Assembly (NCBI GenBank): GCA_947165465.1
Contig: CAMVAM010000002.1
Location: 1 to 64,000 of the forward strand
DNA from: an uncultured Candidatus Saccharibacteria bacterium
GTDB lineage: Bacteria; Patescibacteriota; Saccharimonadia; Saccharimonadales; Saccharimonadaceae
Length of the DNA stretch: 64,000 nucleotides
Reading direction: 5' to 3'
Shown: positions 25,801 to 46,214 of the stretch, one piece after another
Position numbering within the stretch: the first letter of the stretch is position 1
Layout of the letters: every line of letters starts with the position of its first letter
Made by a program: the position numbers and the translations under genes
Notes under the pieces: model-generated
Databases searched by the model: none
What the model saw: the letters and a program-made list of their open reading frames with translations, nothing else
Told to the model about the DNA's origin: nothing

Positions 25801-26747
25801 TGCCCAGCGTCCGCCTCGTAAAGTGGCGTATAGCCGTTCGAACCAGTCGTCCTCGTCGCAAGCGTCGTGCCACTACTACTCTGATTATAAACTCTAAATG
25901 TTGCACCACTCAGCACACCGGTGCCATTAAGTGCTGCATTATATCCGGTCGCAGCGTCATATTTTAGAAGTTGGATATAGCCCTTTTGTACCACCGGAGT
26001 TGGAGTATAGCTTCCATAGAGCCAACCCACTGTCTGATGGCTCGAATCGTTCGGGTAGAAATTTACGAGAGTATATTGTGCCGGAGCATCCGAATAGTTT
26101 GAATTAAACCAGTTAATAATTGTCGCATAAGCCTGGAGGAAATAACTCGTGTATGAGCTATTAATCCCGGCAAACGAACCATAGGCATTATTGCCACTAA
26201 CATATGCTGTGCCCGTATAAGCCGCACCGGCCAGCACATGACCCACCACGAATGCTCTCGCCTGCCCTGCCGTATAAGTACCACCACCATAGCTCACGCT
26301 ACCGGTGCTGGTAATATATGAACCAAGCGATTCAAGATCCATCCCCGTCGATTTAAATGCATTATAAATTGTCGGGTTCACCGCCGCATCCGTTACGAGC
26401 ATAATCTTCACCACGTCCGGATTCGATCCATATCCAATCGAACCATAGTCACCCACGTGCGAAGCCTTAGTCGGTTCGAGACACATCGCGTGCGAAGTAT
26501 AACACCCGGAGCCATTATTCCAACACGGCGCCCCACCGGAACCATCATTTACACGATAAATATGAGTCGTGAGCGAACCGTAATTAATACCACCATTAGG
26601 CGTCGCACCTTCAAGCATTGGCGAGTCTGCAAGCACTGTGGAAAAACCGGCACTAATCCCGAATATTGTAAGCGCTACGAGCCCAACAACAACCAGACCA
26701 TTAACTGCCTTTACAAAAATCTCCCTGGTTTTTGTTTTTATGTGCAT
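22878..26747 (-). CDS. Giant sortase-type adhesin with thioester-like, SpaA and VaFE repeat domains
   Basis: 1289 residues. Signal peptide (about 1-40), an N-terminal domain with MCLEPTK (Cys89) and SHQTVGW (Gln238) that resembles a thioester adhesin domain, two near-identical SpaA/Cna-B repeats (each ...LLKYDAATG...GATFR...), further prealbumin-like domains, then several VaFE/ester-bond repeats (TTATNKEDGHKELALNAEVTITDEIKYEGLVAGNTY pattern). The C-terminus has KPDTGF, a membrane segment (IPVVAVVVAFGLSSAIVIGVIVGV) and RAYKRS, a sortase signal. Likely cell-wall-attached and used to hold a host cell; no sortase gene is in the window. Confidence 0.85.
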   Translation of the reverse strand: MHIKTKTREIFVKAVNGLVVVGLVALTIFGISAGFSTVLADSPMLEGATPNGGINYGSLTTHIYRVNDGSGGAPCWNNGSGCYTSHAMCLEPTKASHVGDYGSIGYGSNPDVVKIMLVTDAAVNPTIYNAFKSTGMDLESLGSYITSTGSVSYGGGTYTAGQARAFVVGHVLAGAAYTGTAYVSGNNAYGSFAGINSSYTSYFLQAYATIINWFNSNYSDAPAQYTLVNFYPNDSSHQTVGWLYGSYTPTPVVQKGYIQLLKYDAATGYNAALNGTGVLSGATFRVYNQSSSGTTLATRTTGSNGYTPLYEADAGQTICFVETSPPNGYNINTNPQCATIQANSTSYLSLANTKQTGTIRLLKYDAATGQSAPLSGATFRLYEQGNSGTTLATKTTDSTGYTSAYTAEAGKTICFVETSAPTGYVPDTTPKCNTIVGNSTVYVYLGNTMQSLHGGVRVRKIDSETNNGNARGSAKVEGTVFTVYNSDSNGTVGSSTGVTLTANATGYATTSASALSIDPVAGGSWYCVRETTAGPGYNLSDTSCKKFYLSSDGVIYDLTGSPFADTPIRGSLTITKQRSIYTSVTHDWSNIPFAGITFTLVNNADSNIAYQTDATDSNGVVTLNNILYGTYTVTENRVAMNEAYELETFTITISSQGQTVTKSVLNELTDVPFIDTTARNTNSNPDDKNNPAASDKEIEIDDAAGVTDYTNYSGLQAGADYRVEGELWKINPPQVRITTKTHDFTAGTGGSGSFDLHFDTIDTTEYIGETLGIIQKLYKKNSNEWLLLTEHNLDFTNTKQTVTVVNLGLSTTATDDIDNDHIIEPTRAQIVKDQVVYQNLVQGRDYILAARLIDKAATQEAGETKVLRINGTEVPAIVTKITMPEAVEGSTTVRFNVNATDIPGKELVVYERLYEYVEGVSASNWEEKLTDLVISHEDLNDTDQTVKVRPRIGTTAVEKSDNNHVVGAGMTTIVDTVSLEGLSKERYRLIGYVVEKKGESGGNTEDTPIVAPVGGGSSTTIRAEKVIDLRSASEIPTSAEMEFTFDTRAFAGKDLVVYEELYRIESNGANTLITWHKDPSDTKQTIKVSTPKIQTTATNKEDGHKELALNAEVTITDEIKYEGLVAGNTYTLVGELRDKKNGEVIEMVDGSTKVIHVFEAEGENGTENMDFAIKTKNMAGREIVVFEELYFGEWIVEEKDEETEEVITPEVPLTEDDLIAIHKDLSSAKQTVRVLPEKPDTGFISRDAEPEETFTIPVVAVVVAFGLSSAIVIGVIVGVRAYKRSHNIW

Positions 26748-29963: not shown

Positions 29964-31154
29964 ATGTCAATTACAAAAATCAATCTACCGGTGGTATCAT
30001 TCCGCCGCATTAATACCCCCTTCGAACAAGAAGGAAAAAGAATCTATTTAGCAGTAATGAAAGCGAAAGATCTACCAGAGGAATTCGAAAGCTGGCGAGA
30101 GATTAATCCTAGAGACCCAAAAACAACATCAGGTGTCGCAAAAAGAATTGCGGAATCTCTTCAAAACCAACCGGAGTGTTTCTTGTTTAGAAACCGCGGG
30201 CTAACATTACTTTCAGAAAATGTTACGTTTAATAACGAGTCAAATCTAGTATCTATCGAGTTTTCAGACAAATCTATGCATGGTCTTCTCGACGGAGGAC
30301 ACACTTATGCTGTAATACGCGATGCATTTGATTCACTTGCAGAAGACGAAAAAGAAGAATCTAATCTCAATAATGCCTATGTGAAAATCGAAATTCTCGA
30401 AGGCATTACCTCAAAAGAAGAAACAACCGAAATCGTTGGGGCACGAAATACTTCCACCCAAGTTAAAGATCAAAGTCTTGCCAATTTACTCCAGCATTTT
30501 GACAAAATCAAGGAAGTTCTAGCAAACGAACCTTATGCCGACCGCATCGCATATAAAGAAACAGAATTGAATTTAGATGGAAGCCAAAAAGATATTGATA
30601 TCAAAGAAATCCTGTCCTATTTAATCTGTTTTGATCGTGAAGGTTTCGGCGACAATACTCATCCAGTTATTGCCTATTCTGGAAAATCATCAGTACTAAA
30701 ATATGCCGATGCTGAACAGAACAGAAATAGACTTCAAAAATACCTTCCGTTATTACCGGAAATACTAATGCTTCGTGACGAAATCTATGAACAAATGCCA
30801 ACTACTTGGAATGACGAAGGTGGAAGATTTGGCAAACTAGAGGGTGTAAATGTCAAAAGTCAAGATAGCGTAGAACTCCCATTCAAAAATGCTAGAACAA
30901 ATTATGTAATACCAAATTCATTCATCTACCCTATTCTTGCCTCGATGCGTGCCTTAGTTGAAGTGAATGACGACGAATGCAAATGGAAAGTATCACCAGT
31001 TGGTTTTTTCAACGATCATAAGAAAGAATTAGTAAGAAGGCTAGTTGAGCAAGCCCTAGTCTTTAAGAACCCAAATAAACTAGGCAAAGAAAAAACCGTC
31101 TGGCAGTCCTGTTATGATTATGTCGTCTTGACCTCACTAAAGTCCGGTTTATAA
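29964..31154 (+). CDS. AIPR-family protein (abortive infection phage resistance)
   Basis: 396 residues. FLFRNRGLTLLSENVTFN followed by FSDKSMHGLLDGGHTYAVIRDAF, then VGARNTSTQVKDQSLANLLQHFDKIK, matches the AIPR core (an R/N-rich GIT-like strand, then the NGxQT-like helix, here DGGHTY). Proteins of this family are linked to abortive infection against phages; the biochemical activity is not well defined. It is transcribed alone from a TTGACA promoter with a long structured leader. The AT-rich sequence differs from the flanking genes, suggesting transfer. Confidence 0.75.
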   Translation: MSITKINLPVVSFRRINTPFEQEGKRIYLAVMKAKDLPEEFESWREINPRDPKTTSGVAKRIAESLQNQPECFLFRNRGLTLLSENVTFNNESNLVSIEFSDKSMHGLLDGGHTYAVIRDAFDSLAEDEKEESNLNNAYVKIEILEGITSKEETTEIVGARNTSTQVKDQSLANLLQHFDKIKEVLANEPYADRIAYKETELNLDGSQKDIDIKEILSYLICFDREGFGDNTHPVIAYSGKSSVLKYADAEQNRNRLQKYLPLLPEILMLRDEIYEQMPTTWNDEGGRFGKLEGVNVKSQDSVELPFKNARTNYVIPNSFIYPILASMRALVEVNDDECKWKVSPVGFFNDHKKELVRRLVEQALVFKNPNKLGKEKTVWQSCYDYVVLTSLKSGL

Positions 31155-31160
31155 ATCATT

Positions 31161-31198
31161 CTAACAAAAAAGACCATTAATTTGGTCTTTTTTGTTAG
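31161..31198 (+). terminator. Terminator of the AIPR gene
   Basis: Fifteen-bp stem CTAACAAAAAAGACC/GGTCTTTTTTGTTAG around an 8-nt loop; can act in both directions. Confidence 0.85.
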
Positions 31199-31257
31199 TC
31201 TAAGTATAATCCACTAGAACCAAGAATCCACATTAAATATAGCATCAGCCCACATAC

Positions 31258-31419
31258 CTAAATTCTAGCAGCTTCTTCTAAAACTCTTTGTTGATCCTTG
31301 CTGGCATTTACGAGTGAAACACGAAAAACCAAATCGGTATCGCCATTTGTATCTGCCTTCACTACATCATCTAAAGTTGGTTTCTTCCTCATTAGCTTTA
31401 GTCTCATATTATCACTCAT
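31258..31419 (-). CDS. 53-residue ORF coupled to the zeta-like kinase
   Basis: Reads MSDNMRLKLMRKKPTLDDVV...QQRVLEEAARI. Its ATG overlaps the kinase stop (ATGAGTGA), a typical coupled start. Basic N-terminus, helical C-terminus. No family recognised; it could be an antitoxin or partner, but known zeta antitoxins (epsilon) are longer and lie upstream. May also be a chance frame. Confidence 0.4.
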   Translation of the reverse strand: MSDNMRLKLMRKKPTLDDVVKADTNGDTDLVFRVSLVNASKDQQRVLEEAARI

Positions 31420-32104
31420 TTATATACTCCTCTAAAGTTTCTTTATTATAATATTTCTTTATCAAATTGTCAATACCGTCTATCTGTACATTCTTGATTC
31501 TATCACCAACATTATTGTTTTCATCCTTCATAACAACATCCAATACTATTTTATCATAATCTTTATACTTATACATAACCTCTTTAAGATTCTCTATAGT
31601 TGCAAAGTATGAATTAATGAACCCATTCATATCTATTGCGCGATGTTCAACTTTTTCCCTTGCGAGCGTAAAATGCCAAGCGATCTTAGGATCTTGAATA
31701 ATATAAATGATCTTTATGCTATAATTGCGTTTTAAAGCACGCTCGATATTTGAAAGAGCATAATCACTACTAAATGTTCCATCCATAATGAAATCTAGTT
31801 TCTTTTTCAACACTTCATCAAACAATCTGTTCAATAGCTCAGAAGCAGCTTCTCTATATTCATTCGCTATTTCTGGGCGATAGCCATCAATCATTGTAGC
31901 CATTTCGTCCATATCTAAACGAATAACTTTTAATGCCGAGGTTTTTATCAAGTTTTTTGTAAATTCAGTTTTCCCAGAACCGGGCAAACCAGCCATAAAT
32001 ACTGCAGACGAAACACTATCAGCGACAACACCGGAATCGCTGATTATTTTATCAACTAAGCTTCTCTTATGTGTTTTTACCCATTTCCTCTGCTCACTCA
32101 CCAT
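31412..32104 (-). CDS. Zeta-toxin-like P-loop kinase
   Basis: 230 residues. Walker A AGLPGSGKTEF (about 42-52), then VIRLDMDEMATMIDGYRPE, an acidic substrate segment, FIMDGTFSS, and ARE in FTLAREKVEHRA, all in the order seen in zeta toxins and related kinases. Zeta toxins phosphorylate UDP-GlcNAc and block wall synthesis; other P-loop kinases of this type modify tRNA or small substrates, so toxicity is not proven. I start at MVSEQRK because TGA-TATACT lies 7 nt before that ATG. Confidence 0.75.
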   Translation of the reverse strand: MVSEQRKWVKTHKRSLVDKIISDSGVVADSVSSAVFMAGLPGSGKTEFTKNLIKTSALKVIRLDMDEMATMIDGYRPEIANEYREAASELLNRLFDEVLKKKLDFIMDGTFSSDYALSNIERALKRNYSIKIIYIIQDPKIAWHFTLAREKVEHRAIDMNGFINSYFATIENLKEVMYKYKDYDKIVLDVVMKDENNNVGDRIKNVQIDGIDNLIKKYYNKETLEEYINE

Positions 32105-32111
32105 ATAAACC

Positions 32112-32120
32112 AGTATATCA
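32112..32120 (-). promoter_or_regulatory. Extended -10 promoter, leaderless zeta-like kinase
   Basis: TGA-TATACT, 7 nt before the ATG at 32104; no Shine-Dalgarno sequence. Confidence 0.55.
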
Positions 32121-32207
32121 TGGTGTTGTAATGTAGTTACTAACAATCTAACATTTTTATATTTTAATTCTTGTTCTAAATGACAATTTAGAGAATATAA
32201 AACCCAA

Positions 32208-32237
32208 CAAAAAAAACGATCTCCACTATCTAATCGT
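32208..32237 (-). terminator. Probable terminator of tRNA-Lys
   Basis: ACGAT/ATCGT five-bp stem, 12-nt loop, then eight U on the minus strand downstream of the tRNA 3' end. Short stem, so moderate support. Confidence 0.5.
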
Positions 32238-32260
32238 CCTTTAGCTTACTAATTTCATTT

Positions 32261-32337
32261 TGGTGAGCCGGGAGGGACTCGAACCCTCGACACCAAGCTT
32301 AAGAGGCTCGTGCTCTAACCAGCTGAGCTACCGGCCC
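32261..32337 (-). tRNA. tRNA-Lys (anticodon CUU)
   Basis: 77 nt with encoded CCA. Acceptor GGGCCGG/CCGGCTC (one G-U pair), D arm GCTC/GAGC, anticodon stem CGAGC/GCTTG with loop CTCTTAA (CTT), T arm GAGGG-TTCGAGT-CCCTC. It sits in the middle of the defence-like block, a usual integration site type. Confidence 0.94.
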
Positions 32338-32418
32338 GCTCACCGTTCAAAAAGAACTCCACTTATTATATCACATATCTATATCTTTTACAATATCATC
32401 TTCAAATCAAAACCGCTG

Positions 32419-32424
32419 TATAAT
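32419..32424 (+). promoter_or_regulatory. -10 promoter element, leaderless mazG-like operon
   Basis: TATAAT, 7 nt before the ATG at 32432. No extended -10 TGn and no Shine-Dalgarno sequence. Confidence 0.55.
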
Positions 32425-32431
32425 AATAGAT

Positions 32432-32746
32432 ATGGAAAAGGTTCAATCTGAAATAGAAAAGTTCAATAAGGAGCGGGATTGGGATCAATTTCATAGCCCA
32501 GAAAATCTCGCTAAATCAATCTCAATTGAAGCCGGCGAATTGCTTGAATGCTTTCAATGGAATAACAACTACAACAAACAGGAAGTCTGCGATGAATTGG
32601 CAGACGTATTTAATTATTGCTTCCAACTAGCAACCAAACTCGAAGTAAATCCTGAAGAAATCATCCTAAACAAGTTAGAGAAAACCAGACAAAAATACCC
32701 TATCGAAAAAGCCAAAGGTACTAGTAAAAAATATACGGAGCTTTAA
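32432..32746 (+). CDS. MazG-like nucleotide pyrophosphohydrolase
   Basis: 104 residues. The MazG/RS21-C6 signature is clear: LAKSISIEAGELLECFQW (ExxE) and EVCDELADVFNYCFQLA (ExxD), all four acidic metal ligands present. All-alpha NTP pyrophosphatase that hydrolyses (d)NTPs to monophosphates, for example to remove modified nucleotides or lower dNTP pools. Only 5 nt separate it from the helicase gene, so the two form an operon, which suggests a joint defence or repair role. Confidence 0.88.
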   Translation: MEKVQSEIEKFNKERDWDQFHSPENLAKSISIEAGELLECFQWNNNYNKQEVCDELADVFNYCFQLATKLEVNPEEIILNKLEKTRQKYPIEKAKGTSKKYTEL

Positions 32747-32751
32747 TCAAA

Positions 32752-34470
32752 ATGCCAGAATTATCAAAAGAATATCCATTTAATAGAACAACTGGGCTAG
32801 AACTAGATGATTATAAATATGGAAAAGAATGGCCAGCTGTTTACATGATTTTTAATAGCGAAGAAGCTTATATTGGCGAAACTGTAGATGTCAGAACAAG
32901 ACTAGCACAGCATTGGATGGCTCCAGAAAGAAGAAAACTAGAAAGAGTCAGAATTATTTCAGATGACACCTTTAATAAGTCAGTGGTTCTTGATCTTGAA
33001 GCATTTCTAATCTCACATATGCAAGCCGACTCACGTTTTAGAACACTCCAAAATGGAAATGCTGGTCATCAGAAACATAATTACTACCAAAAAGAGTACT
33101 ATGAAAAACAATTCGAAGAAATCTGGGAAGGTCTGCGCCGTTATGGACTAGCCGTTCAAGAAATAAAGAAAATCGAAAACAGCAATGTTTTTAAGTATTC
33201 TCCATACAAATCTCTCACTCCAGACCAATACTCTATCACGATGACAATTCTTGATTCCCTAATTCGTGATCTTAGAATCAAGAAAAAAAGATCATTCATT
33301 GTAAACGGCGGGCCAGGCACCGGCAAAACAATTTTAGGTATTTATTTAATGAAATTGCTGACCACTCCACTAGAAGAAGATTTAGGTTCAGATGATGAAA
33401 AACTGATCGAGAATCTTCACACCATAAAACAGTTACTTCCAAATATGAAAATCGGAATAGTTGTTTCAATGGAAAATCTTCGAAAAACCCTAAAAGATAT
33501 TTTTAAATCAACCTATGGGTTAAATAGCTCAATGGTTTACGGACCCAGCGAAATTGCCAACTCACACGAAAGATTTGATTTATTAATCGTTGATGAAGCC
33601 CACAGACTTAAAGCGACTCGTGCAGTAGGTACAGAGATTGGCAGCATGCAAAAAGCAAATATCAAACTTGGGTTTGGCAAAAATACAGGAACACAGCTAG
33701 ACTGGATTTTAAAGAAAAGCGATTATCAAATATTCTTCTATGATGAGCTGCAATCTATTAGAAAGGCTGACATTGATGCCTTTCGATTTGATGAATTACA
33801 AAAATCTGGGGCAAGGTCGTTTACTCTAACCTCACAAATCAGATGTAAAGAAGGTGGAGACGAATATATTAAATACATCAGAGACATTTTCAGTGACCAT
33901 CGTCCAGAAAAGAAGAAGACTTTTGGTAAATACGAACTAAAACTATTCACCGACGTTCGAAAAATGACTGATAAGATTAAAGCCATGGACAATAATCCTG
34001 ATATTAGTCTCTGCAGAAATGTTGCGGGATATGCGTGGCCATGGAATACACACGACAAAATATCACCACAAAACGAAAAAGATACCGAATATTATATCAA
34101 TAACGGATTATATGATATTGAAATAGACGGAAACAAATACATTTGGAATGTTACAAGAAAAAGCTGGATTAGTATGCCAAACTCAATCAATGAAATCGGC
34201 TGCGTCCATACAATTCAAGGCTTTGACTTAAATTATGCTGGCGTAATTATCGGAAAAGATCTCAGATATGACGAAAAACTAGACAAACTATACATCAATA
34301 AAGATTCCTACTATGATAAAAAAGTTCTCACTGATGATGAGGCATTAAAACAATACATATATAATATATACGCCGTGCTCTGTACTCGTGGCATCAACGG
34401 TACATACATCTATGCTTGTGATGAGGGATTAAGAAACTATCTCAAGAAGTTTATTGAAGTCGCAGAATAA
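32752..34470 (+). CDS. GIY-YIG nuclease fused to DUF2075/Schlafen-3-like helicase
   Basis: 572 residues. N-terminal GIY-YIG-type domain (about 25-110: PAVYMIFNSEEAYIGETVDVRTRLAQHW with the catalytic Arg and later Glu in VVLDLEAFLISH), then a superfamily 1-type helicase of the DUF2075 family: Walker A IVNGGPGTGKTILG (about 184-197), Walker B FDLLIVDEAHRL, FFYDELQSI, SQIRCKEGGDEYI and the late motif IGCVHTIQGFDLNYAGVIIG. It probably cuts and unwinds nucleic acid. With the MazG-like partner it makes a plausible anti-phage or stress module; the function is inferred. Confidence 0.85.
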   Translation: MPELSKEYPFNRTTGLELDDYKYGKEWPAVYMIFNSEEAYIGETVDVRTRLAQHWMAPERRKLERVRIISDDTFNKSVVLDLEAFLISHMQADSRFRTLQNGNAGHQKHNYYQKEYYEKQFEEIWEGLRRYGLAVQEIKKIENSNVFKYSPYKSLTPDQYSITMTILDSLIRDLRIKKKRSFIVNGGPGTGKTILGIYLMKLLTTPLEEDLGSDDEKLIENLHTIKQLLPNMKIGIVVSMENLRKTLKDIFKSTYGLNSSMVYGPSEIANSHERFDLLIVDEAHRLKATRAVGTEIGSMQKANIKLGFGKNTGTQLDWILKKSDYQIFFYDELQSIRKADIDAFRFDELQKSGARSFTLTSQIRCKEGGDEYIKYIRDIFSDHRPEKKKTFGKYELKLFTDVRKMTDKIKAMDNNPDISLCRNVAGYAWPWNTHDKISPQNEKDTEYYINNGLYDIEIDGNKYIWNVTRKSWISMPNSINEIGCVHTIQGFDLNYAGVIIGKDLRYDEKLDKLYINKDSYYDKKVLTDDEALKQYIYNIYAVLCTRGINGTYIYACDEGLRNYLKKFIEVAE

Positions 34471-35117: not shown

Positions 35118-35147
35118 AAAAAAGGGCCGAGCATTGCTCGACCCTTG
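35118..35147 (-). terminator. Terminator of the ubiquitin-like operon
   Basis: On the minus strand GGGTCGAGC-AAT-GCTCGGCCC forms a stem (one G-U pair) followed by six U. Confidence 0.88.
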
Positions 35148-35163
35148 CATGAAAAGACGATAA

Positions 35164-35409
35164 TTAGCCGTTTGCCGGCCTACCGGCAACCACAATCGTG
35201 TCACCGGGCTTCACGTGCGTGTTCTTCGGATTAAGCACACGCACTTTGCCGAGCGTCGGAGACTTGTCGGACGTGTAGATCACGTCCGCCCGCTTCAGCA
35301 CGCTGTCCACCGTATCGCCCTGCTGCCACGTCACCTCAATGGGCTTCGTGCCGGCGCCGACGGCGATATACACCTTGTCACCCTTCACTCTCGATACTAC
35401 TTTAGCCAT
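35164..35409 (-). CDS. Ubiquitin-like beta-grasp protein (modifier)
   Basis: 81 residues from the ATG after AAGGAGGATATAG. Strand-helix-strand pattern of the ubiquitin/ThiS fold: KVYIAVGAGTKPIEVTW (two strands), GDTVDSVLKRADV (helix), GKVRVLNPKNTHV and PGDTIVVAG (late strands), ending in a terminal Gly (RPANG) that could be adenylated by the E1. Size matches ubiquitin (76). It is the last gene, 13 nt after the E1-like gene. The family call is by pattern only; lack of GG at the end is a caution. Confidence 0.7.
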   Translation of the reverse strand: MAKVVSRVKGDKVYIAVGAGTKPIEVTWQQGDTVDSVLKRADVIYTSDKSPTLGKVRVLNPKNTHVKPGDTIVVAGRPANG

Positions 35410-35422
35410 CGCTATATCCTCC

Positions 35423-36091
35423 TTAAATATTACGGGAAAGGTCCCGCATGATATTAAACTCAATCTCTTCTCCGCGGATGAAGCGGGTGAGATTGTAGCT
35501 TACGATAGTTGCGATGTACGTCGCAATGTAACCGATGTTCCTGGCTCCGCACTCCAGCTTGCTTGCTTCCGTGTCGTTAAACAGCCAGGTCTCGTACGCT
35601 TGCACATCTTCCGAGTCAAACGGTACAACCGAGAGAACCTGAACTTCTTCTCCGGCCGATCGCGCATCGATATAAAGCGGAATATCGACAAAATTCGCCT
35701 GGATAGCATCCCAGATTTCTTCTCTGCTCTTCATTGAGTCCACGCCACAAATCACGTAGCCGGTTAGCTCCGTATCCTTTGTCACGCGCTCATTGTGAAG
35801 CACGAGTATCACACTGTCTCCGACCAAGTGTTCGACAATATCCCTCGCGGCCTCTACTTTCGGCTGCCCCACCAGCGCTTCGCTGTAGGCAACTTCAGTG
35901 GGGCCGTTTCGGGCCTCGAAAATGTCGTCATCCCATACGTGGATTTCAGGAAATCCCATTTTGGCGAGAAGCTGTACCAGCATATTGCCGATGCCGCCAG
36001 CGCCAATAATGTGCACGGGATAACCAACTTTTTCCGGGTCAAACAACTTGGTCTGGTCCGAAAAAACCCTTTCCGAAAAGGTCTTCGCCAT
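35423..36091 (-). CDS. ThiF/E1-like ubiquitin-activating enzyme
   Basis: 222 residues. Rossmann adenylation domain: VHIIGAGGIGNMLVQLLAKMGF (GxGGxG at 30-35), acidic HVWDDDIFEARN, then VICGVDSMKSREEIW and IDARSAGEEVQVL; a Cys in LECGARNIGYIATYIATIV (Cys181) is a candidate thioester acceptor. Single-domain, ThiF/PRTRC-like. It would adenylate the C-terminal Gly of the neighbouring modifier. Starts inside the JAB gene (overlap 53 nt). Confidence 0.88.
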   Translation of the reverse strand: MAKTFSERVFSDQTKLFDPEKVGYPVHIIGAGGIGNMLVQLLAKMGFPEIHVWDDDIFEARNGPTEVAYSEALVGQPKVEAARDIVEHLVGDSVILVLHNERVTKDTELTGYVICGVDSMKSREEIWDAIQANFVDIPLYIDARSAGEEVQVLSVVPFDSEDVQAYETWLFNDTEASKLECGARNIGYIATYIATIVSYNLTRFIRGEEIEFNIMRDLSRNI

Positions 36092-36626
36092 GGAACACTT
36101 CCCCCTTCTTTAAAGCGTCTCTTTTAATAATCGTGACTTTCTTCGCCATTTCATCCCGGCATTTTTTCGTCAGCCGACTATCGAAGTAGTCAAACACGAC
36201 TTCAAGCGGGATATTCTCGATACGAAACGGACGTTTCATATCAAGGCGTGCGAGTCTTTCGCCACGTCCGTTAATCACCAGGTTTACGACATAGTCACTG
36301 GTCTCACTTCTGATATCCATCACATCCACGCCGGAAAAGAACACTGCTCCCATTCCGTGTGAATGCCAACGAAACTTCAGCTTCTCCACGTCATCCTTCC
36401 GGCCTTCTTCAATGAGGTCGGTAATGATTTCGTGAAGTCCGGTTTCGCCGAATTGCGAAAAGGCCGGTTCTACACTCTGCGTCGGCAAGAAGATTTCTCT
36501 CACCCGAAAAGTGTCCAACCCACGATTCAGCTCGATGATGCCGTTACCCGTCACCTCATTCGGCAAACAGATTTCGGCATAATTCATCATCTGAATCCAG
36601 ATTTTGATCGGAATTACAAGCTTCAT
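36039..36626 (-). CDS. JAB/JAMM metallopeptidase (deconjugating enzyme)
   Basis: 195 residues. Contains LPNEVTGNGII (candidate Glu24) and RWHSHGMGAVFFSGVDV, i.e. HxH-x7-SxxD with His88, His90, Ser98 and Asp101: the complete JAMM zinc site. JAB proteins in such operons release or mature ubiquitin-like modifiers. The gene starts right after the stop of the E2-like gene (TAA then ATG) with GGGAGGG inside that gene as its ribosome-binding site, and it overlaps the E1-like gene downstream. Confidence 0.88.
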   Translation of the reverse strand: MKLVIPIKIWIQMMNYAEICLPNEVTGNGIIELNRGLDTFRVREIFLPTQSVEPAFSQFGETGLHEIITDLIEEGRKDDVEKLKFRWHSHGMGAVFFSGVDVMDIRSETSDYVVNLVINGRGERLARLDMKRPFRIENIPLEVVFDYFDSRLTKKCRDEMAKKVTIIKRDALKKGEVFHGEDLFGKGFFGPDQVV

Positions 36627-37895
36627 TTAGTTCCCTCCCTTTTCTTTCAAAAGCTTCCTTCTGACTCGCTCTTCCACTTCAACCTCACGAAAACAGTACG
36701 GGATCTTTGCTTCCACTTCGGCGTCATTCACACTGTGAAGACTGTCAATCATCAGTGAGATTGCCTCGAGATAACGTCCATTGCAAACATAGTCCGCAAT
36801 CGTCCGCCTTCTCGAACCAAAGCAAAAGCCAGAAGGTTCATTGTAATCCGGCGCCGTCGAAGATGCATCCATCCGGACTCCGGAACGAACTCTCGTGCAA
36901 GAATATTCTCGTCCATCTATCCGGATTTCGTAATCGCCAAAGTCATACAGCTTGTTTTTGTACGGCACCCGCACATCCACCTGTATGACAAGACCTTTCA
37001 CCTTCTTCCGCCGTTTCCGCGCGTAAACTCTGGAAACCCCCCGCATATGACGGATGGCATTCCATTCATTTATCGCGCGTTCGCGTGTTGCACTTTCCTG
37101 TTCAACGAGTTCGTACTTCTTTAGCTCGGCAAGGATTTCGCTCTTTCTTTTTTGCGCTTCGCGAAGCGACCGTCCATAGTTCGCCAAACGGTTTTCTACG
37201 TCGGTCTTTTGCTCCTCGAGCTCTTTTAAGTGCGATTCCCTCGCCTGTCTACTTCCGCCAACCACGTATTTCACGTAGGTCGCTTCAGCTTTTTCGTTTG
37301 CCCTGCCAATTAATATCGGCGAAGGCTGCTCTTTGTCGATTTCGCGCTGGATTTCTTCTCTCAGTGCCTTTTTCTCTGCAAACTTTAACCTGATAACTTT
37401 AATCATCATTATTATCAAGCTCACAACAAGCACCGGATAAAAAGGTATCAGCGCCACGAGGAGTAGTCGCCCAATCCATGAGCTAAGCGGTAAATCTGCC
37501 ATATGGTATCGCCACGTTTTGCTTTTCAGATACTCTATAAATACTCCGATTGAATACGTTACATAGAGTATCCCCAGCAAAATATACCAAACTTTAGCTA
37601 CATGTCCCCAGTAAGATATTTCGTCCTTTTCGCGCAGTGTAAAAGTGGTTGAATCTTCCGGCAGCTCATACTTCAAAAATGGCGCCGCCACCTCACGATC
37701 GTGTTCACTTAACGCATTAAATGCTTCTGCGTATTCATTAAAAGCAGCGATTGACTTTTGATCGTCCGTTAAAATCGGCCAACCAAGCAAAAGAAAAAAC
37801 GCCATAATAATGAATATCGCGGCCACATAACATAGTGGTTTGATGAACACCTCGTCCGTTTCAATGTCCTTTACGTAACCATTCCTCCGGTACAT
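36627..37895 (-). CDS. Membrane-anchored coiled-coil protein with E2-like C-terminal domain
   Basis: 422 residues. Membrane segments near 22-42, 102-123 and 143-168, an Arg/Glu coiled coil (about 200-260) and a C-terminal domain (about 295-400): helix AINEWNAIRHM, strands LVIQVDVRVPY and YDFGDYEIRI, then TAPDYNEPSGFCFGS with Cys358, and helices ADYVCNGRYLEAISLMIDSL. The Gx(I/F)C(L/F)G motif after a Pro-rich turn is what prokaryotic E2 enzymes show around the active Cys. The fold call is by eye. Start at the second Met of MEMYRR, 7 nt after GGGGG. First gene of the operon. Confidence 0.6.
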   Translation of the reverse strand: MYRRNGYVKDIETDEVFIKPLCYVAAIFIIMAFFLLLGWPILTDDQKSIAAFNEYAEAFNALSEHDREVAAPFLKYELPEDSTTFTLREKDEISYWGHVAKVWYILLGILYVTYSIGVFIEYLKSKTWRYHMADLPLSSWIGRLLLVALIPFYPVLVVSLIIMMIKVIRLKFAEKKALREEIQREIDKEQPSPILIGRANEKAEATYVKYVVGGSRQARESHLKELEEQKTDVENRLANYGRSLREAQKRKSEILAELKKYELVEQESATRERAINEWNAIRHMRGVSRVYARKRRKKVKGLVIQVDVRVPYKNKLYDFGDYEIRIDGREYSCTRVRSGVRMDASSTAPDYNEPSGFCFGSRRRTIADYVCNGRYLEAISLMIDSLHSVNDAEVEAKIPYCFREVEVEERVRRKLLKEKGGN

Positions 37896-37927
37896 TTCCA
37901 TACCCCCTAAATTATCGTCTAAACTGT

Positions 37928-37970
37928 AAAAAAACATTGAGGCATAACCTCAACTCCATATATTATATCA
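37928..37970 (-). promoter_or_regulatory. Promoter and 5'-terminal leader hairpin of the ubiquitin-like operon
   Basis: TGA-TATAAT (-10 at 37962-37967). Nine nt downstream TTGAGG-TTATG-CCTCAA forms a hairpin (37937-37953), then seven U, then GGGGG before the ATG. It could stabilise the mRNA 5' end or act as an attenuator. Confidence 0.65.
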
Positions 37971-37993
37971 TATCTTTTTATTCTTGTAAAACA

Positions 37994-38024: not shown

Positions 38025-38852
38025 TTAATGCCCACCACCAAGTTGGACAGCACCGGCCTGTTTCATCCTTTCTTCAAAGGAAGCTCCTTCGGCCGGAGGA
38101 GCGGCGCTGTATGCTTTTTGATACCGCTCTACGTACGTCATGATGTCGCCGTCTCGCTCTTTTTTCAGTTGTTCTTCGATTTCTTCTTCGGTCTGCTGAA
38201 TCACGTTTTCGAAGATTTCCGTGAGCTTATCCAGCTCTGCCGCCGACGCGAGGTCGGTCACATGGATCGACGTCTCGTCATCGTTAACCTTCGCGAGATA
38301 CTCACTCATCGCCGTATAAAACTTGTCGAGTGAAGCGAGGATTACCCGGTTGTCTTTGGCGATGTCAATAATCATCGCCTTGTATTCTTCCTGGTTGCTT
38401 TTCAGCTTAGAACTCCACAGGCTCTCAACGACCGACACTACCTCGCGCCGGTTGTCCGAATAGGCATCAAAGCACCGCTGCAAAACTGCAAACGTGAACT
38501 TCGGACGCTCCATCTTGAGCCGCCGTACCAGCGGCACAATCTGATCATACAAAAAGTTGATTCTGCGTTCCTGGGTTCTTAATTCATCCAGGGCCTCTTT
38601 CACATCCGACAGTTTGCCATAGTCCTTCACTTCGCTGAGAAAACCGAGATAATCGATGGTTGCTCCGTCCGTAAAGGTATCGCTTACCACATACGGACTA
38701 GACTTGTACTTCAGTACACCTCTTTCTTCCTCCTCAAGCTGTCGCTCGAGGGCTTCTCTTTCCTGTCTTCTTTCCCGTGCTTCCTTGAATAGTCGTCCAA
38801 AAAAGACTGCACTGCCAAGCGTCACCAAAGTGATCATAATGAACGAGAACAT
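38025..38852 (-). CDS. Membrane-anchored coiled-coil protein of unknown function
   Basis: 275 residues from the ATG after AGGAGGG. One N-terminal membrane segment (MFSFIMITLVTLGSAVFFG), a long charged coiled coil (about 20-50), then helical, acidic sequence to the C-terminus (EEEIEEQLKKERDGD) ending GAVQLGGGH. No family recognised. It lies just upstream of the ubiquitin-like operon, has its own promoter and terminator, and shares the 5'-hairpin leader type, so it may belong to the same regulon or serve as a substrate or scaffold; this is inference. Confidence 0.6.
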   Translation of the reverse strand: MFSFIMITLVTLGSAVFFGRLFKEARERRQEREALERQLEEEERGVLKYKSSPYVVSDTFTDGATIDYLGFLSEVKDYGKLSDVKEALDELRTQERRINFLYDQIVPLVRRLKMERPKFTFAVLQRCFDAYSDNRREVVSVVESLWSSKLKSNQEEYKAMIIDIAKDNRVILASLDKFYTAMSEYLAKVNDDETSIHVTDLASAAELDKLTEIFENVIQQTEEEIEEQLKKERDGDIMTYVERYQKAYSAAPPAEGASFEERMKQAGAVQLGGGH

Positions 38853-38874
38853 GCTATCCCTCCTATTAATGTAC

Positions 38875-38909
38875 AAAAAATTGCTATCCCTAGCTTTACT
38901 ATTATAGCA
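38875..38909 (-). promoter_or_regulatory. Promoter and 5'-terminal leader hairpin of the coiled-coil gene
   Basis: TGC-TATAAT (-10 at 38901-38906). Seven nt downstream GCTA-GGGA-TAGC forms a hairpin (38883-38894), then six U. The hairpin sequence GGGATAGCA is repeated exactly at the ribosome-binding site just before the ATG. Confidence 0.6.
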
Positions 38910-39028
38910 TATTTTCCTTGCAAAATCAATGCAGCAGCTCCGAGCAATGATCGAGGGCAGCAAGTATCGTTCCTAGGACGGCTCCTTCTCCATCATCAAC
39001 TGTCACAAGAAATAAATCCCCACTGCAT

Positions 39029-40583: not shown

Positions 40584-40787
40584 GTTTGCCTTTCTAATTG
40601 TTTTTGCCGATATTTTTCTCTATACCAGCGGGTTAACAAATAACATCAAATTATAAATTTCCACTCTCAATTATAGCACAAAAAGTGGAAAATTTGAACC
40701 CTTGAAACCTTGCTAATTAACCATAAAAACTATATAATATTTACAGAGTGTGGTTTAGATAAACAAAAAACTACAAAACTTAATGGG

Positions 40788-43700
40788 ATGGTGGTAAAAC
40801 CATTATTTACCTTGTCCCCAAAAACCAAAGTGAAAACAATAATAAATACCAAAAGTTTAATTAAAACCTACAAAAACATCCGCATCAGCGGCGTGGTTTC
40901 TTGTGCTATTTTAATTGTTTTGACTTTCTTCGCCTGCTTCCCTGGTCACAAAGAAACTGATACACTCGCAGCCGGTCATGCCGCAACTGCGAGTGTTATT
41001 TCATTTAATTCCGTTCGCAACATCGCGAGTGTCACCATCGATCCAACCTCAACCGGCGTCTTTGGCTCCAGTGATAATAATAGCAATATTAGTTTCTCAA
41101 TCAGCAGCAACAACTACACCGGCTACACCTTGACCGTCCGCTCAAACAAAACCACCTTGGACAATGGTGATAATTCCTTCTCACCACTTGCATCAAACGT
41201 TACCGCCACCCAATTTGCCGCTTCCGGCAATACAACCTTAAACAATCGTTGGGGCTACCAACCAAACTATTACAACTCCACCGCAAACACTAACTATCTC
41301 GTTCCGCCATCCAGCACTTCCGTAACTCTTGATGCTACGACTACTGCAAGTACCACAGCCAAAAATTACACCATCAATCTTGGTGCCCGCGCCGACACTT
41401 CCATCGCCTCCGGCACCTATTTAAATAGCACTTTCATCCTCGAATATATCGCCAATCCGGTTCCGTACACCATCAACTTTAATGATAACGCCACGGGCGA
41501 CATCGCTTCCAATATTCCAAACACCATTTCTGGTAATTCCGTCACCGCAAGTACCATCGCTCTTCCGGCCACCGTCCCAACTCGTGCGAATTATACTTTT
41601 GCCGGCTGGTGTACCGGTACCGTCACTCATGTTGCTGGTGGCGACCATTGTTCAAATTACGATTATTACCAGGCTGGTGATGATTATGGTATTGACTATA
41701 CCGGCACTAACACCGCAACGCTTACCGCCATGTGGACTTCAAATGAAGGTTGCAATAAAGTTGCTACCACCATCGCGACCGGCGTTGCTTCAACCGATGC
41801 TGTCTGTATGCAAGACATCAACGACGCCGTGATTTCCACCATGGTAGCCGGCACCCAGTACACTTTAAAAGATATGCGTGACGGCAAATCCTATTACCTT
41901 GCGAAACAAGCAGATGGCAAAGTCTGGATGACGCAAAATCTCGATTACGATTTAAACACTTCTACTACTCTAACTTACGACAATACCGACCTTGGTCACG
42001 TTACCGGTGACAATACCACGACTTGGACTTCCAGTACAAGCTCCATTGTTAATGCTTCAGTCTGGAACATGAGCAGCCAGAATCTTCCGTATTCGTTTAA
42101 TCCTGGCGATATTTATTATTACACTTCCGGAAGCACATCGGACGATACACTTTATTCTTCGACCAGTGCCTGCACCACCGCTCATAATGATGGTTCTTGT
42201 GCACACTATCACGTTGGTAATTATTACACTTGGACCGCCGCCGCTGCTTCAAATGATTCCAACTCCATCGTTTCTTCCATCGATCACGTAAATCAATCAG
42301 TCTGCCCGGCCGGCTGGCGTTTACCAAGAGGTCAAGACGTCTACGCCTTTAGTGAAGTCAATAATCTTCTATACAAAGTCGGTGCCGTTAATAGATATGT
42401 CGCAACCGTTGCCGGTAGTAGCGCCGATTGGACCACGAATGGCTTTAACAATGTTCGCACCACTCCACTTTATTTCAATCGAACTGGTGCCATCTGGACT
42501 TCGTCAGTTAGCTACGCTGGAACCAACGGTTATTATTGGAATGATAACGTTGCCTCGGAAATCAGCGCCACCGCTTCTTACTTTACCAAAGATTCCTTTA
42601 ACGTGAGTGGCACTTTAACCAGACGCAATGGTTTCCCGATTCGTTGTGTTGCCAGAATGAATACCGGCACCACTACAGTAAACTTCAATGGCAATGGCGC
42701 CGAAAACACCATGTCACCGGTCACCGTCGAAACCGGCCAGGCCGTTAAACTAACCAACATTTTTAAAAGAACCGGATACCAATTCACCGGCTGGAACACC
42801 GCCGCTAATGGCTCCGGCACCAGCTATTCGGACACCGACGCCATCGTTGACACTCCACCAAAAACTGTCACTGTCAATCTTTATGCCCAGTGGAATCCGG
42901 TCTTCCGCATTACCTACGACGGCAATGGCGCCGATAATCCTGATGCCATGCCAATTAAACACGAAGTAGCCGAGAACGCTTCAGTTACCTTAGTTGCTAA
43001 CAACTATACTCGTGCAGGCTACGGTTTTGCTGGTTGGTCTCAAACTCAAATTGATGGCGACGCTGCCGATGTCCAGTCGCGCATCGCTCTTGCTAAAGTC
43101 TATGGCCCAAACGAAACCATCACCGCCTCCGCTTCGGAACTTGGCAAATCCTTCCCGAACGACTTCACTCTCTATGCTGTCTGGGTTAAGTCTGAAGGCA
43201 ATATCCAAGATTGGAAAGGCTGTACTTCTCTCGGCGCCGGCAATGTTACTGCTCTCACCGACACCCGTGACAACGAAACCTATGCCGTCGGCAAACTTCC
43301 GGATGGCCAGTGCTGGATGATTGAAAACCTTCGCTTGAACGACGCCAATTCTGCCTACAAGAGTAATTCTTCACAGGGTTTTGGCGGCGTCTTTGTGGGA
43401 CTTCCGTCCTCCGAAGTCGTTACCTTCTCCTACAATACTCAAACCAATTCCCGCTACACTTTTGATCAAGATAGCACCACTCTTCAAGTTATTTCCGGCA
43501 ACGCCGTATCGAATCGTATGCCACATTACAATGGCCAACACACCACCAATGCCGCGAGCTCCATCTATTATAATACTCAAAACAACCGTGGCTACGGCAA
43601 CTATTATAACTGGGCATCCGCTATGGCCAGCACCAACGAATTCACGAGCTCCACTACGTCCGAAGCTGCCGGCACTTCCATTTGCCCATCCGGCTGGCGC

Positions 43701-46214
43701 CTTCCAACCGGTACTTCTTCTGGTGAATTCGAAAACTTAAATACCCTTCTCGAATCTGGTGCCACCAATACTTCCACAAAATTTACTAAATTCCCGCAAA
43801 ACATGGTTCATGCCGGATATATTTGGAACGGTACGCTTTATTCGCTCACTACTACATATTATTACTGGTCTTCCTCCAATTCACACCAAGGCTATTCCTA
43901 TGCACTTGGTTCAGGCAACACTCCTCATTCCGGCACCAATAATAACGTCGGTGCATCCGTTCGTTGTATCGCCGAAAATCGTGTCGAAGTCCGACTCTAC
44001 GCCAATGACGGCTCCGGCCGTGTCGCTAGACTCTACGGCAACGCCGGCGACACTCTTACCCTTCCTTCTCCATCCTTCCAAAACATCGACCACGAAAACA
44101 AAACCATTACTTCCTGGAACACCAACTCCGGCGGCACCGGTACTTCGTATACCACCACCTACACCATCCCAACCGGCTCTTCTGTGTTCTCACTTTATGG
44201 CATTTGGTCGAACACTTACACCATTAGATATAACGGCAATGGTAGCACCGGCATCACCACGATGGACGCCGCTAGCCAAACCGGTATCGTAAACGATAGT
44301 TCTGTCCGACTCCTTGCTAATGGCTATTCTCGTGGTGGTTATGGCTTTGTCGGTTGGTCCAGAACTCAAATCGACCCGAACTCTTCTAATTATTCAACCC
44401 TTCTTGCGAACGCCAAAGTCTATGGGCCAAACGAATTAGTTACGGCCAACTCAACCAACTTTGGTGCCACTGCTCCAAGCACCGTCACTCTTTATGCCGT
44501 CTGGATTAAATCTTCCGGCAACCTCCAAGGCTGGACCGGCTGTGGCAGTCTCACTATGGCTACATATAATAACGGTACGATTACACCGGGTAGCATTATC
44601 GGCCTCACCGACACTCGTGACACCAGAGTTTATGCCGTCGCTCGTCTCACCGACGGCAACTGCTGGATGATTGAAAACCTCAAACTTGGAAGCACCGGCT
44701 CTACCGACAGCACCAAAGCTCGTGGTTTCGGTGGCGTCTTCTCTGGCCTTGCCACTTCCGAAAATGCCAACTTTGCTAACGTCACCACTGCAAACACACT
44801 CTATAGCACCACCAACATTACCGGTGACAATGTCGCCTATCGCTTCCCAAGACATAATAGCAAAAATACTGATATTATTAGCCCAAGTTATGATTCCGGT
44901 GGCGAAGTCTTTGGCTACGGCAATTATTACACTTGGGCCGCCGCCATGGCAAATACCAGTGATCTAACCTCCTATCAGGCCTCCGACGCCACCGGTACAT
45001 CCATCTGTCCAACTGGTTGGGATGTCCCACTCGGCTACACTCGTATGACTAACCTTGCCTATTCATATCTCGATACCACCATCGGCGGCACCGGTGTCGC
45101 TCAATATAGCACCACTCAGCTAGAAAAGTGGCATCAATTCCCATTCAACCTCATAAATTCCGGTTACATGTCTGGCGCATCCATTTCCGGCCGTGGCACC
45201 ATGGGCTATAATTGGTCCAGATCCGCCACCAGCACTACAAACGCTGCAGCCATTGGCATAACATCTACTTACGTCGCTCCTGGTACCAATAATCTCTCCA
45301 AGACCTTTGGTTTCACCCTCCGTTGTGTTATCGCCGGCACCAGTAGCATGACCATTTCAAATATCTCCACCATGCAACAACTCTCTACCATCACTATTAA
45401 CGATAGAAACTCCGTCATTAATTCCATGACCACCGGCGCCCAATATCAACTAAGAGATACTCGCGAAACCAATAAATATTACTATGTCTCCAAACTCGCC
45501 GACGGCAAAGTCTGGATGACTCAGAACCTCGACCTAGACTTAAGTACCAGCAAAACCTTAACTCACGAAGATACCGACCTTGGTTGGGATTTGTCATCGT
45601 CTGTTCGGAGCTGGACTCCGTCAAGAAGTACTATCAATGCCACCGGTGTTAATAATAACTACATCACTGGTTGGGCCGAAAGCGACACCACGCCATATTC
45701 CGTCGACCCAGGTGACTGGTACTGGGATAACACCTGGTACACTTCCAGTTCGTACTACAACTATCTCGGCGGCACTGCCAGCCCGAAGTTCGCCACCTCC
45801 GCCTTCTCCGGAAACGGCGTTCATGGTCATGTTGGTAACTTCTATAACTGGAGCGCCGCCATCGCTACAAACGACTCCTCTTCCATCTCTTCTTCTGTCC
45901 TCGCGCCAAATTCTATCTGCCCAGCCGGTTGGAAACTTCCTTCCGCCTCCGACTACTACTCTCTCATGACAAACTACGGCAGTCCGACCACCGACCAAAC
46001 CTTTACTTCATCACCGCTCTATTTCCTTCGCGCCGGCGAAGTCAACGCTTCTTCACAACTAAATGGCCCTGGCTACAATGGTGGCTATTGGCAAAGCCAA
46101 GGTAGCAGCAGTACTCAGTCTATCTATCTCACCTTCACCAGTTCCTACATCGGAAACTATCTCTCCGATAGAGACATGGGGCACAACATCCGTTGCGTAC
46201 TCAGAGGCGAATAA
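40788..46214 (+). CDS. Giant surface protein with four FISUMP modules and InlB-like repeats
   Basis: About 1808 residues. Membrane/signal segment (about 34-54), a Ser/Thr/Asn-rich strand region, then four FISUMP modules (about 357-622, 823-1063, 1272-1515, 1553-1808), each running from (L/M)RDTRD..Y..(K/R)L.DG..WM..NL to S(I/V)CP.GW.(L/V)P and ending RC(V/I). Between them lie Listeria-Bacteroides (InlB-type) repeats (VNFNGNGAENTMSPVTVETG..., YRRGYGF.GWS). No C-terminal anchor. Probably displayed on the surface for adhesion or carbohydrate binding. Start uncertain: chosen as the first ATG after the TATAAT at 40733; no clear Shine-Dalgarno sequence. Confidence 0.8.
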   Translation: MVVKPLFTLSPKTKVKTIINTKSLIKTYKNIRISGVVSCAILIVLTFFACFPGHKETDTLAAGHAATASVISFNSVRNIASVTIDPTSTGVFGSSDNNSNISFSISSNNYTGYTLTVRSNKTTLDNGDNSFSPLASNVTATQFAASGNTTLNNRWGYQPNYYNSTANTNYLVPPSSTSVTLDATTTASTTAKNYTINLGARADTSIASGTYLNSTFILEYIANPVPYTINFNDNATGDIASNIPNTISGNSVTASTIALPATVPTRANYTFAGWCTGTVTHVAGGDHCSNYDYYQAGDDYGIDYTGTNTATLTAMWTSNEGCNKVATTIATGVASTDAVCMQDINDAVISTMVAGTQYTLKDMRDGKSYYLAKQADGKVWMTQNLDYDLNTSTTLTYDNTDLGHVTGDNTTTWTSSTSSIVNASVWNMSSQNLPYSFNPGDIYYYTSGSTSDDTLYSSTSACTTAHNDGSCAHYHVGNYYTWTAAAASNDSNSIVSSIDHVNQSVCPAGWRLPRGQDVYAFSEVNNLLYKVGAVNRYVATVAGSSADWTTNGFNNVRTTPLYFNRTGAIWTSSVSYAGTNGYYWNDNVASEISATASYFTKDSFNVSGTLTRRNGFPIRCVARMNTGTTTVNFNGNGAENTMSPVTVETGQAVKLTNIFKRTGYQFTGWNTAANGSGTSYSDTDAIVDTPPKTVTVNLYAQWNPVFRITYDGNGADNPDAMPIKHEVAENASVTLVANNYTRAGYGFAGWSQTQIDGDAADVQSRIALAKVYGPNETITASASELGKSFPNDFTLYAVWVKSEGNIQDWKGCTSLGAGNVTALTDTRDNETYAVGKLPDGQCWMIENLRLNDANSAYKSNSSQGFGGVFVGLPSSEVVTFSYNTQTNSRYTFDQDSTTLQVISGNAVSNRMPHYNGQHTTNAASSIYYNTQNNRGYGNYYNWASAMASTNEFTSSTTSEAAGTSICPSGWRLPTGTSSGEFENLNTLLESGATNTSTKFTKFPQNMVHAGYIWNGTLYSLTTTYYYWSSSNSHQGYSYALGSGNTPHSGTNNNVGASVRCIAENRVEVRLYANDGSGRVARLYGNAGDTLTLPSPSFQNIDHENKTITSWNTNSGGTGTSYTTTYTIPTGSSVFSLYGIWSNTYTIRYNGNGSTGITTMDAASQTGIVNDSSVRLLANGYSRGGYGFVGWSRTQIDPNSSNYSTLLANAKVYGPNELVTANSTNFGATAPSTVTLYAVWIKSSGNLQGWTGCGSLTMATYNNGTITPGSIIGLTDTRDTRVYAVARLTDGNCWMIENLKLGSTGSTDSTKARGFGGVFSGLATSENANFANVTTANTLYSTTNITGDNVAYRFPRHNSKNTDIISPSYDSGGEVFGYGNYYTWAAAMANTSDLTSYQASDATGTSICPTGWDVPLGYTRMTNLAYSYLDTTIGGTGVAQYSTTQLEKWHQFPFNLINSGYMSGASISGRGTMGYNWSRSATSTTNAAAIGITSTYVAPGTNNLSKTFGFTLRCVIAGTSSMTISNISTMQQLSTITINDRNSVINSMTTGAQYQLRDTRETNKYYYVSKLADGKVWMTQNLDLDLSTSKTLTHEDTDLGWDLSSSVRSWTPSRSTINATGVNNNYITGWAESDTTPYSVDPGDWYWDNTWYTSSSYYNYLGGTASPKFATSAFSGNGVHGHVGNFYNWSAAIATNDSSSISSSVLAPNSICPAGWKLPSASDYYSLMTNYGSPTTDQTFTSSPLYFLRAGEVNASSQLNGPGYNGGYWQSQGSSSTQSIYLTFTSSYIGNYLSDRDMGHNIRCVLRGE

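Follow-up and report, generated by a model that had tools for sequence, protein, structure and literature searches.

The first 64,000 nucleotides of contig CAMVAM010000002.1 (assembly GCA_947165465.1), referred to here as the window, open a 113-kb contig of an uncultured Candidatus Saccharibacteria bacterium, whose genome comprises 785 kb and is 98% complete. Four minus-strand genes that follow each other head to tail from 37937 to 35164 of this window probably encode a reversible and self-contained ubiquitin-like (Ubl) conjugation system, in which the conjugating enzyme (E2) is anchored in the cytoplasmic membrane; its chemistry, topology, targets and purpose we infer from sequences and predicted structures. 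In the direction of transcription the genes are arranged in the order E2-JAB-E1-Ubl, with the modifier gene last. A first-pass annotation of the window had proposed four overlapping or near-touching genes for modifier, activating enzyme (E1), E2 and JAB peptidase at this place. All four were found at the positions it gave and in an order that is conserved in relatives, and the completeness of the set is supported by the profile matches of the E1 and the JAB protein and by the predicted folds of the modifier and of the E2 domain. The E1 and JAB matches and the conserved order go far past what chance would produce. The general hallmarks of Ubl conjugation are thereby present: a Gly-ended beta-grasp modifier, an E1 of the ThiF/UBA superfamily with its nucleotide-binding residues, and a predicted E2 fold with its Cys. 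The genes and the parts of the E2-like protein are as follows.

36627-37937, minus strand: membrane-tethered E2-like protein, 436 amino acids (aa) from the first ATG.
37758-37856, minus strand: hydrophobic segment 1 of this protein (residues 28-60), from hydropathy; conserved in relatives of the transmembrane (TM) type.
37524-37592, minus strand: hydrophobic segment 2 (residues 116-138), from hydropathy and TM-type relatives.
37371-37481, minus strand: hydrophobic segment 3 (residues 153-189), from hydropathy and TM-type relatives; a basic stretch and a coiled coil come next.
36663-37070, minus strand: predicted E2 (UBC-like) domain, about residues 290-425, from the AlphaFold2 (AF2) model, fold matches and profile links.
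36822-36824, minus strand: codon of the predicted catalytic Cys372, from conservation in homologues and from the register with the E2 active-site Cys via HPH-type relatives.
36039-36626, minus strand: JAMM/JAB peptidase, 195 aa, from the family profile and invariant catalytic residues.
35423-36091, minus strand: E1-like adenylating enzyme (ThiF), 222 aa, from Pfam ThiF and the profile match to the NEDD8 E1.
35164-35409, minus strand: ubiquitin-like modifier, 81 aa, from the AF2 beta-grasp model and profile and fold matches.

No family was assigned to the E2-like protein in Pfam or NCBIfam scans, and single-protein scans of the E2 and the modifier gave nothing usable; single sequences were uninformative for these two proteins and family-level profiles were needed. 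A profile search that included the coiled coil retrieved coiled coils, which was remedied by cropping the query to the E2 core. The AF2 model of the E2 domain (pLDDT 94.1, pTM 0.78) consists of a helix, a four-strand meander, the Cys and two helices. Its top matches in Foldseek are E2s with E-values of about 0.1, and in VIA the rows are mostly UBC, ubiquitin E2 variant (UEV) or RWD domains at Z 5-6, including the bacterial CdnG-E2; by themselves these modest structural matches would fall short of proof. The profile of the E2 family has UBE2L3 as best match in the PDB (E 0.025). Among the homologues retrieved by way of the E1 is a branch in which the counterpart protein has the classical E2 layout, HPHI..G.PC[L/W]GN. 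The profile of this HPH-type branch resulted in 39 matches to PDB sequences at E-values up to 10, all 39 of them E2 enzymes, and its Cys lies in register with the sequence HPNIDEKGQVC of UBE2L3. Alignment of the Saccharibacteria branch with the HPH-type branch by hhalign gave a probability of 97.8% (E 7.6e-13, 134 columns) and placed FCFG on PCLG. Moreover, the Cys of the GFCFG motif in the window E2 is retained in 43 of 43 homologues, arguing against an inactive UEV. The predicted fold and the profile links support the assignment of the C-terminal domain of the membrane protein as an E2, the catalysis of which is predicted. The absence of an E2 fold around this Cys, which is Cys372 in the numbering from the first ATG and Cys358 when counted from the third, had been set beforehand as the result that would overturn the proposal; in the AF2 model the UBC topology was found around it, in agreement with the fold and profile matches. 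Variation within the family was also seen. At one locus (L052, 12620-13945) the E2 gene carries a duplicated E2-like domain, the second copy of which is without the catalytic Cys motif. The counterpart E2s at loci L078, L085 and L093-L113 have an HPH motif resembling human UBE2W. Human UBE2W modifies N-terminal amino groups, and by analogy the HPH motif of these counterparts may hint at N-terminal tagging.

The other three proteins were assigned more directly or through their families. The E1 matches Pfam ThiF with an E-value of 7.7e-20 and is the sole PF00899 match in the genome, and its family profile reaches the catalytic subunit of the NEDD8 E1 at 7.5e-19. The columns that are invariant in 14 homologues include GxGG (GxGGxG in the window), D54, D56, N62, K78, D118 and Cys181, of which Cys181 is probably the E1 thioester site, judged from its invariance alone. 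For the JAB protein the single sequence matches Pfam Prok-JAB at 0.0018, which is below the cut-off, and the family profile matches RPN11 (5e-7), AMSH and, weakly, BilC (E 0.055). The complete HxHx7SxxD site that the first-pass annotation had read in this protein is there as H88-S-H90-x7-S98-x2-D101, and together with the MPN Glu24 these residues are invariant in 14 homologues and constitute the JAMM (MPN+) definition of E plus HxHx7SxxD. The window modifier alone gave no significant family match; among the 31 members of its family Pfam matches to ThiS, SAMP2 and Ub-Mut7C were found, and the family profile matches the SAMP2 structure 5lda (1.2e-9) as well as ThiS/MoaD structures. The AF2 model (pLDDT 83.8) shows a single beta-grasp domain in beta-beta-alpha-beta-beta order, with MoaD, SAMP1 and ThiS among the best structural matches at Z 8-9, so that the earlier description as an 81-residue beta-grasp protein ending in Gly holds. 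It ends in PANG with Gly81 as the terminal residue, leaving no tail to be trimmed, and the C-terminal Gly column is invariant (31/31). The ending differs between branches and is NG in the candidate phyla radiation (CPR) and GG in Chloroflexi, Methylomirabilota and most of the phage members read. Some modifiers carry one or a few residues beyond the Gly (Q, QI, C, R), as expected for precursors trimmed by the JAB protein.

These assignments suggest the following cycle. The E1, as a homodimer similar to MoeB/ThiF, would adenylate Gly81 of the modifier using ATP and would then form a thioester with it, probably on Cys181. The modifier would pass to Cys372 of the E2 domain, which would be held in the cytoplasm on the coiled coil below the three membrane segments, and the E2 would couple it to amino groups of membrane-embedded or membrane-adjacent proteins, in an operon without a dedicated E3. 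The JAMM protease would remove the modifier from the targets and, in relatives whose modifier has one or two residues past the Gly, would also mature the precursor.

The membrane tether of the E2, which had been proposed together with three membrane segments, a coiled coil and the GFCFG Cys, is consistent with the hydropathy of the protein: three strongly hydrophobic segments are followed by a basic stretch and by the coiled coil, with the UBC domain at the C-terminus. At least two hydrophobic segments are present in 15 of 26 CPR E2s examined and in 0 of 18 E2s from Methylomirabilota, Chloroflexi, Rubrobacter, Verrucomicrobia or viral contigs. In the modifier, the E1 and the JAB protein of the window no hydrophobic segment was found by hydropathy. 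The E2 domain should face the cytoplasm, because the E1 requires ATP and the modifier is not exported. Of the two target places considered in the first-pass annotation, the membrane is therefore kept, at its predicted cytoplasmic face and in view of the tethered E2, whereas targets on the cell surface are unlikely, because modifier, E1 and JAB are without a hydrophobic segment and the E1 requires ATP. Near topA at locus L054 (5978-7278), two adjoining stand-alone proteins resemble the E2 in its membrane part only, one of them with 44% over residues 34-104, in a genome without an E1 match; they are either a decayed cassette or an independent membrane module.

The occurrence of the cassette is sporadic. 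Matches to both E1 and E2 were found in 14 of 295 sampled Saccharimonadia genomes (~5%), belonging to at least four families, and most of these carriers retain the order E2-JAB-E1-Ubl, which answers the call for a survey of the gene order in Saccharibacteria. The order also holds in relatives whose proteins are about 20-50% identical, and many carriers are, according to their record titles, gut- or rumen-associated Saccharibacteria. Related sets also occur in Nomura-, Uhr-, Ryan- and Vogelbacteria, in Methylomirabilota, Chloroflexi, Rubrobacter and one Verrucomicrobium, and on IMG/VR contigs that reach 230 kb; outside Saccharimonadia these sets are partly incomplete, some lineages yielding fewer than the four genes. 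A related ThiF is encoded by cultured and uncultured crAss-like phages, and in the regions that were read a JAB lies next to it. For the four proteins, the pairwise distances correlate with one another (Mantel r 0.64-0.86, 0/2000 permutations); such correlated divergence is expected for genes travelling together and does not separate co-function from common descent. Two further loci are of note. In a crAss-like phage (L136, 1005-5148) ThiF and JAB adjoin an open reading frame (ORF) with an N-terminal stretch that looks like a beta-grasp, and a further ORF has a possible H-x-H...PC motif, so that the region looks, by eye, like a phage version of the module. Genome G148 contains a second cassette (L045, 7459-10576), in which two E1 domains are fused in a protein of 432 aa next to a JAB and in which the E2 is without membrane segments.

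Bacterial Ubl operons were described earlier, and row 6d of that compilation combines Ubl, JAB, E1 and E2 with a helical protein and ParB (Iyer et al. 2006, PMC1779556). The cassette shares the logic of these operons and its gene set is closest to row 6d. The row 6d operons were equated in this analysis with the PRTRC system, an assumption of ours. In common with PRTRC the cassette has separate genes for single-domain Ubl, E2, JAB and E1 proteins in one operon, its E2-JAB-E1 order equals PRTRC B-A-ThiF, and the plasmid matches of a distant E1 of the cassette family are all PRTRC ThiF. In contrast, in comparison with the NCBIfam models the JAB reaches 21 bits against PRTRC_A (cut-off 101.8) with a match only from position 74 on, the E1 reaches 23 bits against PRTRC_ThiF (cut-off 144.75), and the models for PRTRC B and C gave no match to the cassette proteins. 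The four-gene unit contains no ParB, protein E or protein F, the cassette modifiers end in NG or GG whereas the PRTRC C proteins read end in other residues, and PRTRC ThiF keeps the N..RQ motif that the cassette E1 is without. Between cassette E2 and PRTRC B hhalign gave 0.3-1.1% with a shallow PRTRC B profile of four sequences; a motif resemblance can be seen by eye (YFN..G.[IV]C.G). A reduced PRTRC system was rejected in view of the scores below the NCBIfam cut-offs and the lack of ParB, E and F genes.

In Bil systems BilA consists of two Ubl domains, BilD combines an inactive and an active adenylation domain (IAD, AAD) with a Cys domain, and BilB carries a CEHH motif (PMC11354881). The cassette likewise distributes Ubl, E2, JAB and E1 over four genes, and the weak JAB profile match to BilC was mentioned above. 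It differs in having R, I and C at positions +6, +8 and +13 from the Cys in an E2 family without conserved E/H/H there, in its 81-aa modifier with one Ubl domain, in the membrane anchor of its E2 and in its E1, which is a bare ThiF-type domain of 222 aa and which the BilD model matches only at 211-321 of 453. The E2 seems to constitute a family of its own, set apart from BilB by the published motif description. A reduced Bil system was rejected as well, as there is no CEHH, one Ubl domain and a bare E1 without the IAD-AAD-Cys architecture; the proposal of a reduced Bil or PRTRC variant made in the first-pass annotation was accordingly given up. The Bub system shares the bacterial E1/E2/JAB/Ubl logic, and the E1 profile matches Citrobacter BubCD at 7e-9, but the solved BubCD chain, on which this comparison rests, has 458 aa and matches the E1 in its C-terminal part, whereas E1 and JAB of the cassette are separate short proteins. 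Type II cyclic-oligonucleotide-based anti-phage signalling systems (CBASS) use E1, E2 and JAB chemistry in Cap2/Cap3, and PADLOC E1-E2 models match the cassette E1 weakly. In the cassette, however, E1 and E2 are unfused and a modifier gene is present; next to it no CBASS nucleotidyltransferase (CD-NTase) or effector gene was recognised. The eukaryotic E2s Ubc6 and UBE2J are anchored in the membrane by one C-terminal tail with the catalytic domain in the cytoplasm. The likeness of a tethered E2 with a cytoplasmic catalytic domain is an analogy only, as the cassette anchor is made of three N-terminal segments plus a coiled coil. The closest kin of the cassette make up a separate family with members in CPR bacteria, Methylomirabilota, Chloroflexi and phages.

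Several observations weigh against a membrane-anchored conjugation system. For the E2, single sequences or a single family give weak scores (Foldseek E 0.1, Z 5-6, PDB profile E 0.02-0.05), and it is the agreement between these that carries the assignment. The Saccharibacteria branch has lost the HPN/HPH motif, with P-D-Y-N...FCFG in the window, and E2 chemistry is for this reason not assured. The E1 is without the Arg of the usual N-L-x-R-Q motif, the family having N-x-P/A-T/S-x, the window modifier ends in NG and not in GG, and some relatives are without membrane segments, so that the family can do without the anchor. The loss of HPN/HPH in the CPR branch and the weak scores would also suit an E2-like domain that is an inactive UEV/RWD-like scaffold, with the E1 handing the modifier straight to targets or to another enzyme, and polyUbl operons containing an inactive E2 have been described (Iyer et al. 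2006, PMC1779556, row 6e). We regard this as improbable, since the Cys is present in 43/43 sequences at the place where E2s have it, whereas a UEV-type domain could lose it freely, which has happened in the second E2-like repeat of genome G294. Still less probable is a sulfur-carrier system, in which the ThiF-like enzyme would make a ThiS/MoaD-like thiocarboxylate for biosynthesis or tRNA thiolation, with the E2-like protein and the JAB as accessories. In fold, the modifier is near to ThiS/MoaD/SAMP and the E1 to ThiF, and some Ubls, such as SAMP2 and Urm1, serve both conjugation and sulfur transfer. However, searches with positive controls gave no match to ThiG, MoaE or rhodanese in the 98% complete genome, which argues against this role, as do the presence of an E2-fold protein with an invariant Cys and of a JAB in the same operon, the phage copies and the sporadic distribution.

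As to the purpose of the conjugation system, defence is plausible by analogy and from the patchy distribution, and CBASS Cap2 provides a precedent (PMC10097602). In such a role the membrane-bound E2 would mark proteins of phage or host origin at the membrane while the phage enters or is assembled. Protein tagging serves phage defence in Bil and Bub systems. The sporadic presence across several families and the neighbours in the window (AIPR, zeta-toxin-like, MazG-like and AbiO/Nhi-like SLFN helicase proteins) are in line with this, and the related genes in phages could act in counter-defence; however, among 123 neighbouring ORFs in 13 relatives there is no recurrent defence partner and there are many housekeeping genes, and PADLOC gives only generic E1 matches for the cassette. 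We hold anti-phage defence to be possible, at somewhat less than even chances. Somewhat less probable still appears a role in the control or quality control of the cell's own membrane proteins, e.g., those for attachment to or exchange with a host cell. The anchor is kept in CPR E2s at low overall identity and is absent in other lineages, and many carriers are the gut- or rumen-associated Saccharibacteria mentioned above, but about 95% of the sampled Saccharimonadia are without the system, which is hence not a core function, no conserved membrane-protein partner was seen among the neighbours, and the genome gave no match to a proteasome.

The cassette is delimited by two candidate signals.

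37962-37990, minus strand: sigma-70-like promoter, predicted from the consensus match alone (TTTACA-17-TATAAT, 11/12 consensus positions, extended -10 TG).
35122-35146, minus strand: strong intrinsic terminator-like hairpin with 11 pairs and a T-run, 3' of the modifier gene.

Since these promoter-like and terminator-like sites bracket exactly E2, JAB, E1 and modifier, these four appear to form a single transcription unit without any further gene. The promoter-like site sits exactly between the terminator-like site of the upstream gene (38021-37998) and the E2 gene, and the E1 and JAB genes overlap by 53 nt. A Shine-Dalgarno-like GGGGG suits the ATGs at 37901/37895 of the E2 gene better than the first ATG. 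The upstream neighbour (38025-38963) encodes a protein of 312 aa without a family match, which hardly any other genome of the genus shares; the CmpB gene occurs commonly in the genus, in varying contexts. No clean empty-site comparison among congeners was obtained, as the flanks are too rearranged. The genes on the other side of the cassette (29964-34470) form a defence-like cluster. They encode an AIPR protein, a zeta-toxin-like kinase and a MazG-like protein as well as a GIY-YIG plus SLFN-g3 helicase, for which PADLOC gave AbiO/Nhi-like matches. Further away, the window encodes a surface protein of 1289 aa with SpaA repeats and four TQ ester-bond domains (22878-26747), likely an adhesin, and a protein of 1834 aa with Fib_succ_major and Listeria-Bacteroides repeat domains (40710-46214), probably a large surface protein.

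As a broader reading, we see an even chance that the cassette represents an undescribed class of bacterial Ubl conjugation with an E2 family of its own (HPH/FCFG type, invisible to Pfam and NCBIfam), which would be common to CPR bacteria, several free-living phyla and large phages, and in which the CPR branch would have made the E2 membrane-tethered, resulting in tagging at the cytoplasmic membrane. A search of openly accessible papers, to which the main Bil and Bub papers and most subscription papers do not belong, found nothing on such a system for CPR bacteria or crAss-like phages, so that an earlier description is possible. Saccharibacteria genomes are among the smallest bacterial ones, yet about one in twenty of those sampled devotes 2.8 kb to a full Ubl cycle. 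If the E2 is indeed built into the membrane, this would be bacterial tagging at a fixed site of the cell, with membrane proteins or proteins arriving at the membrane as the expected targets. Finally, the related gene sets of phages, some with GG modifiers and HPH E2s, could reveal whether phages and hosts turn the same tag on each other.

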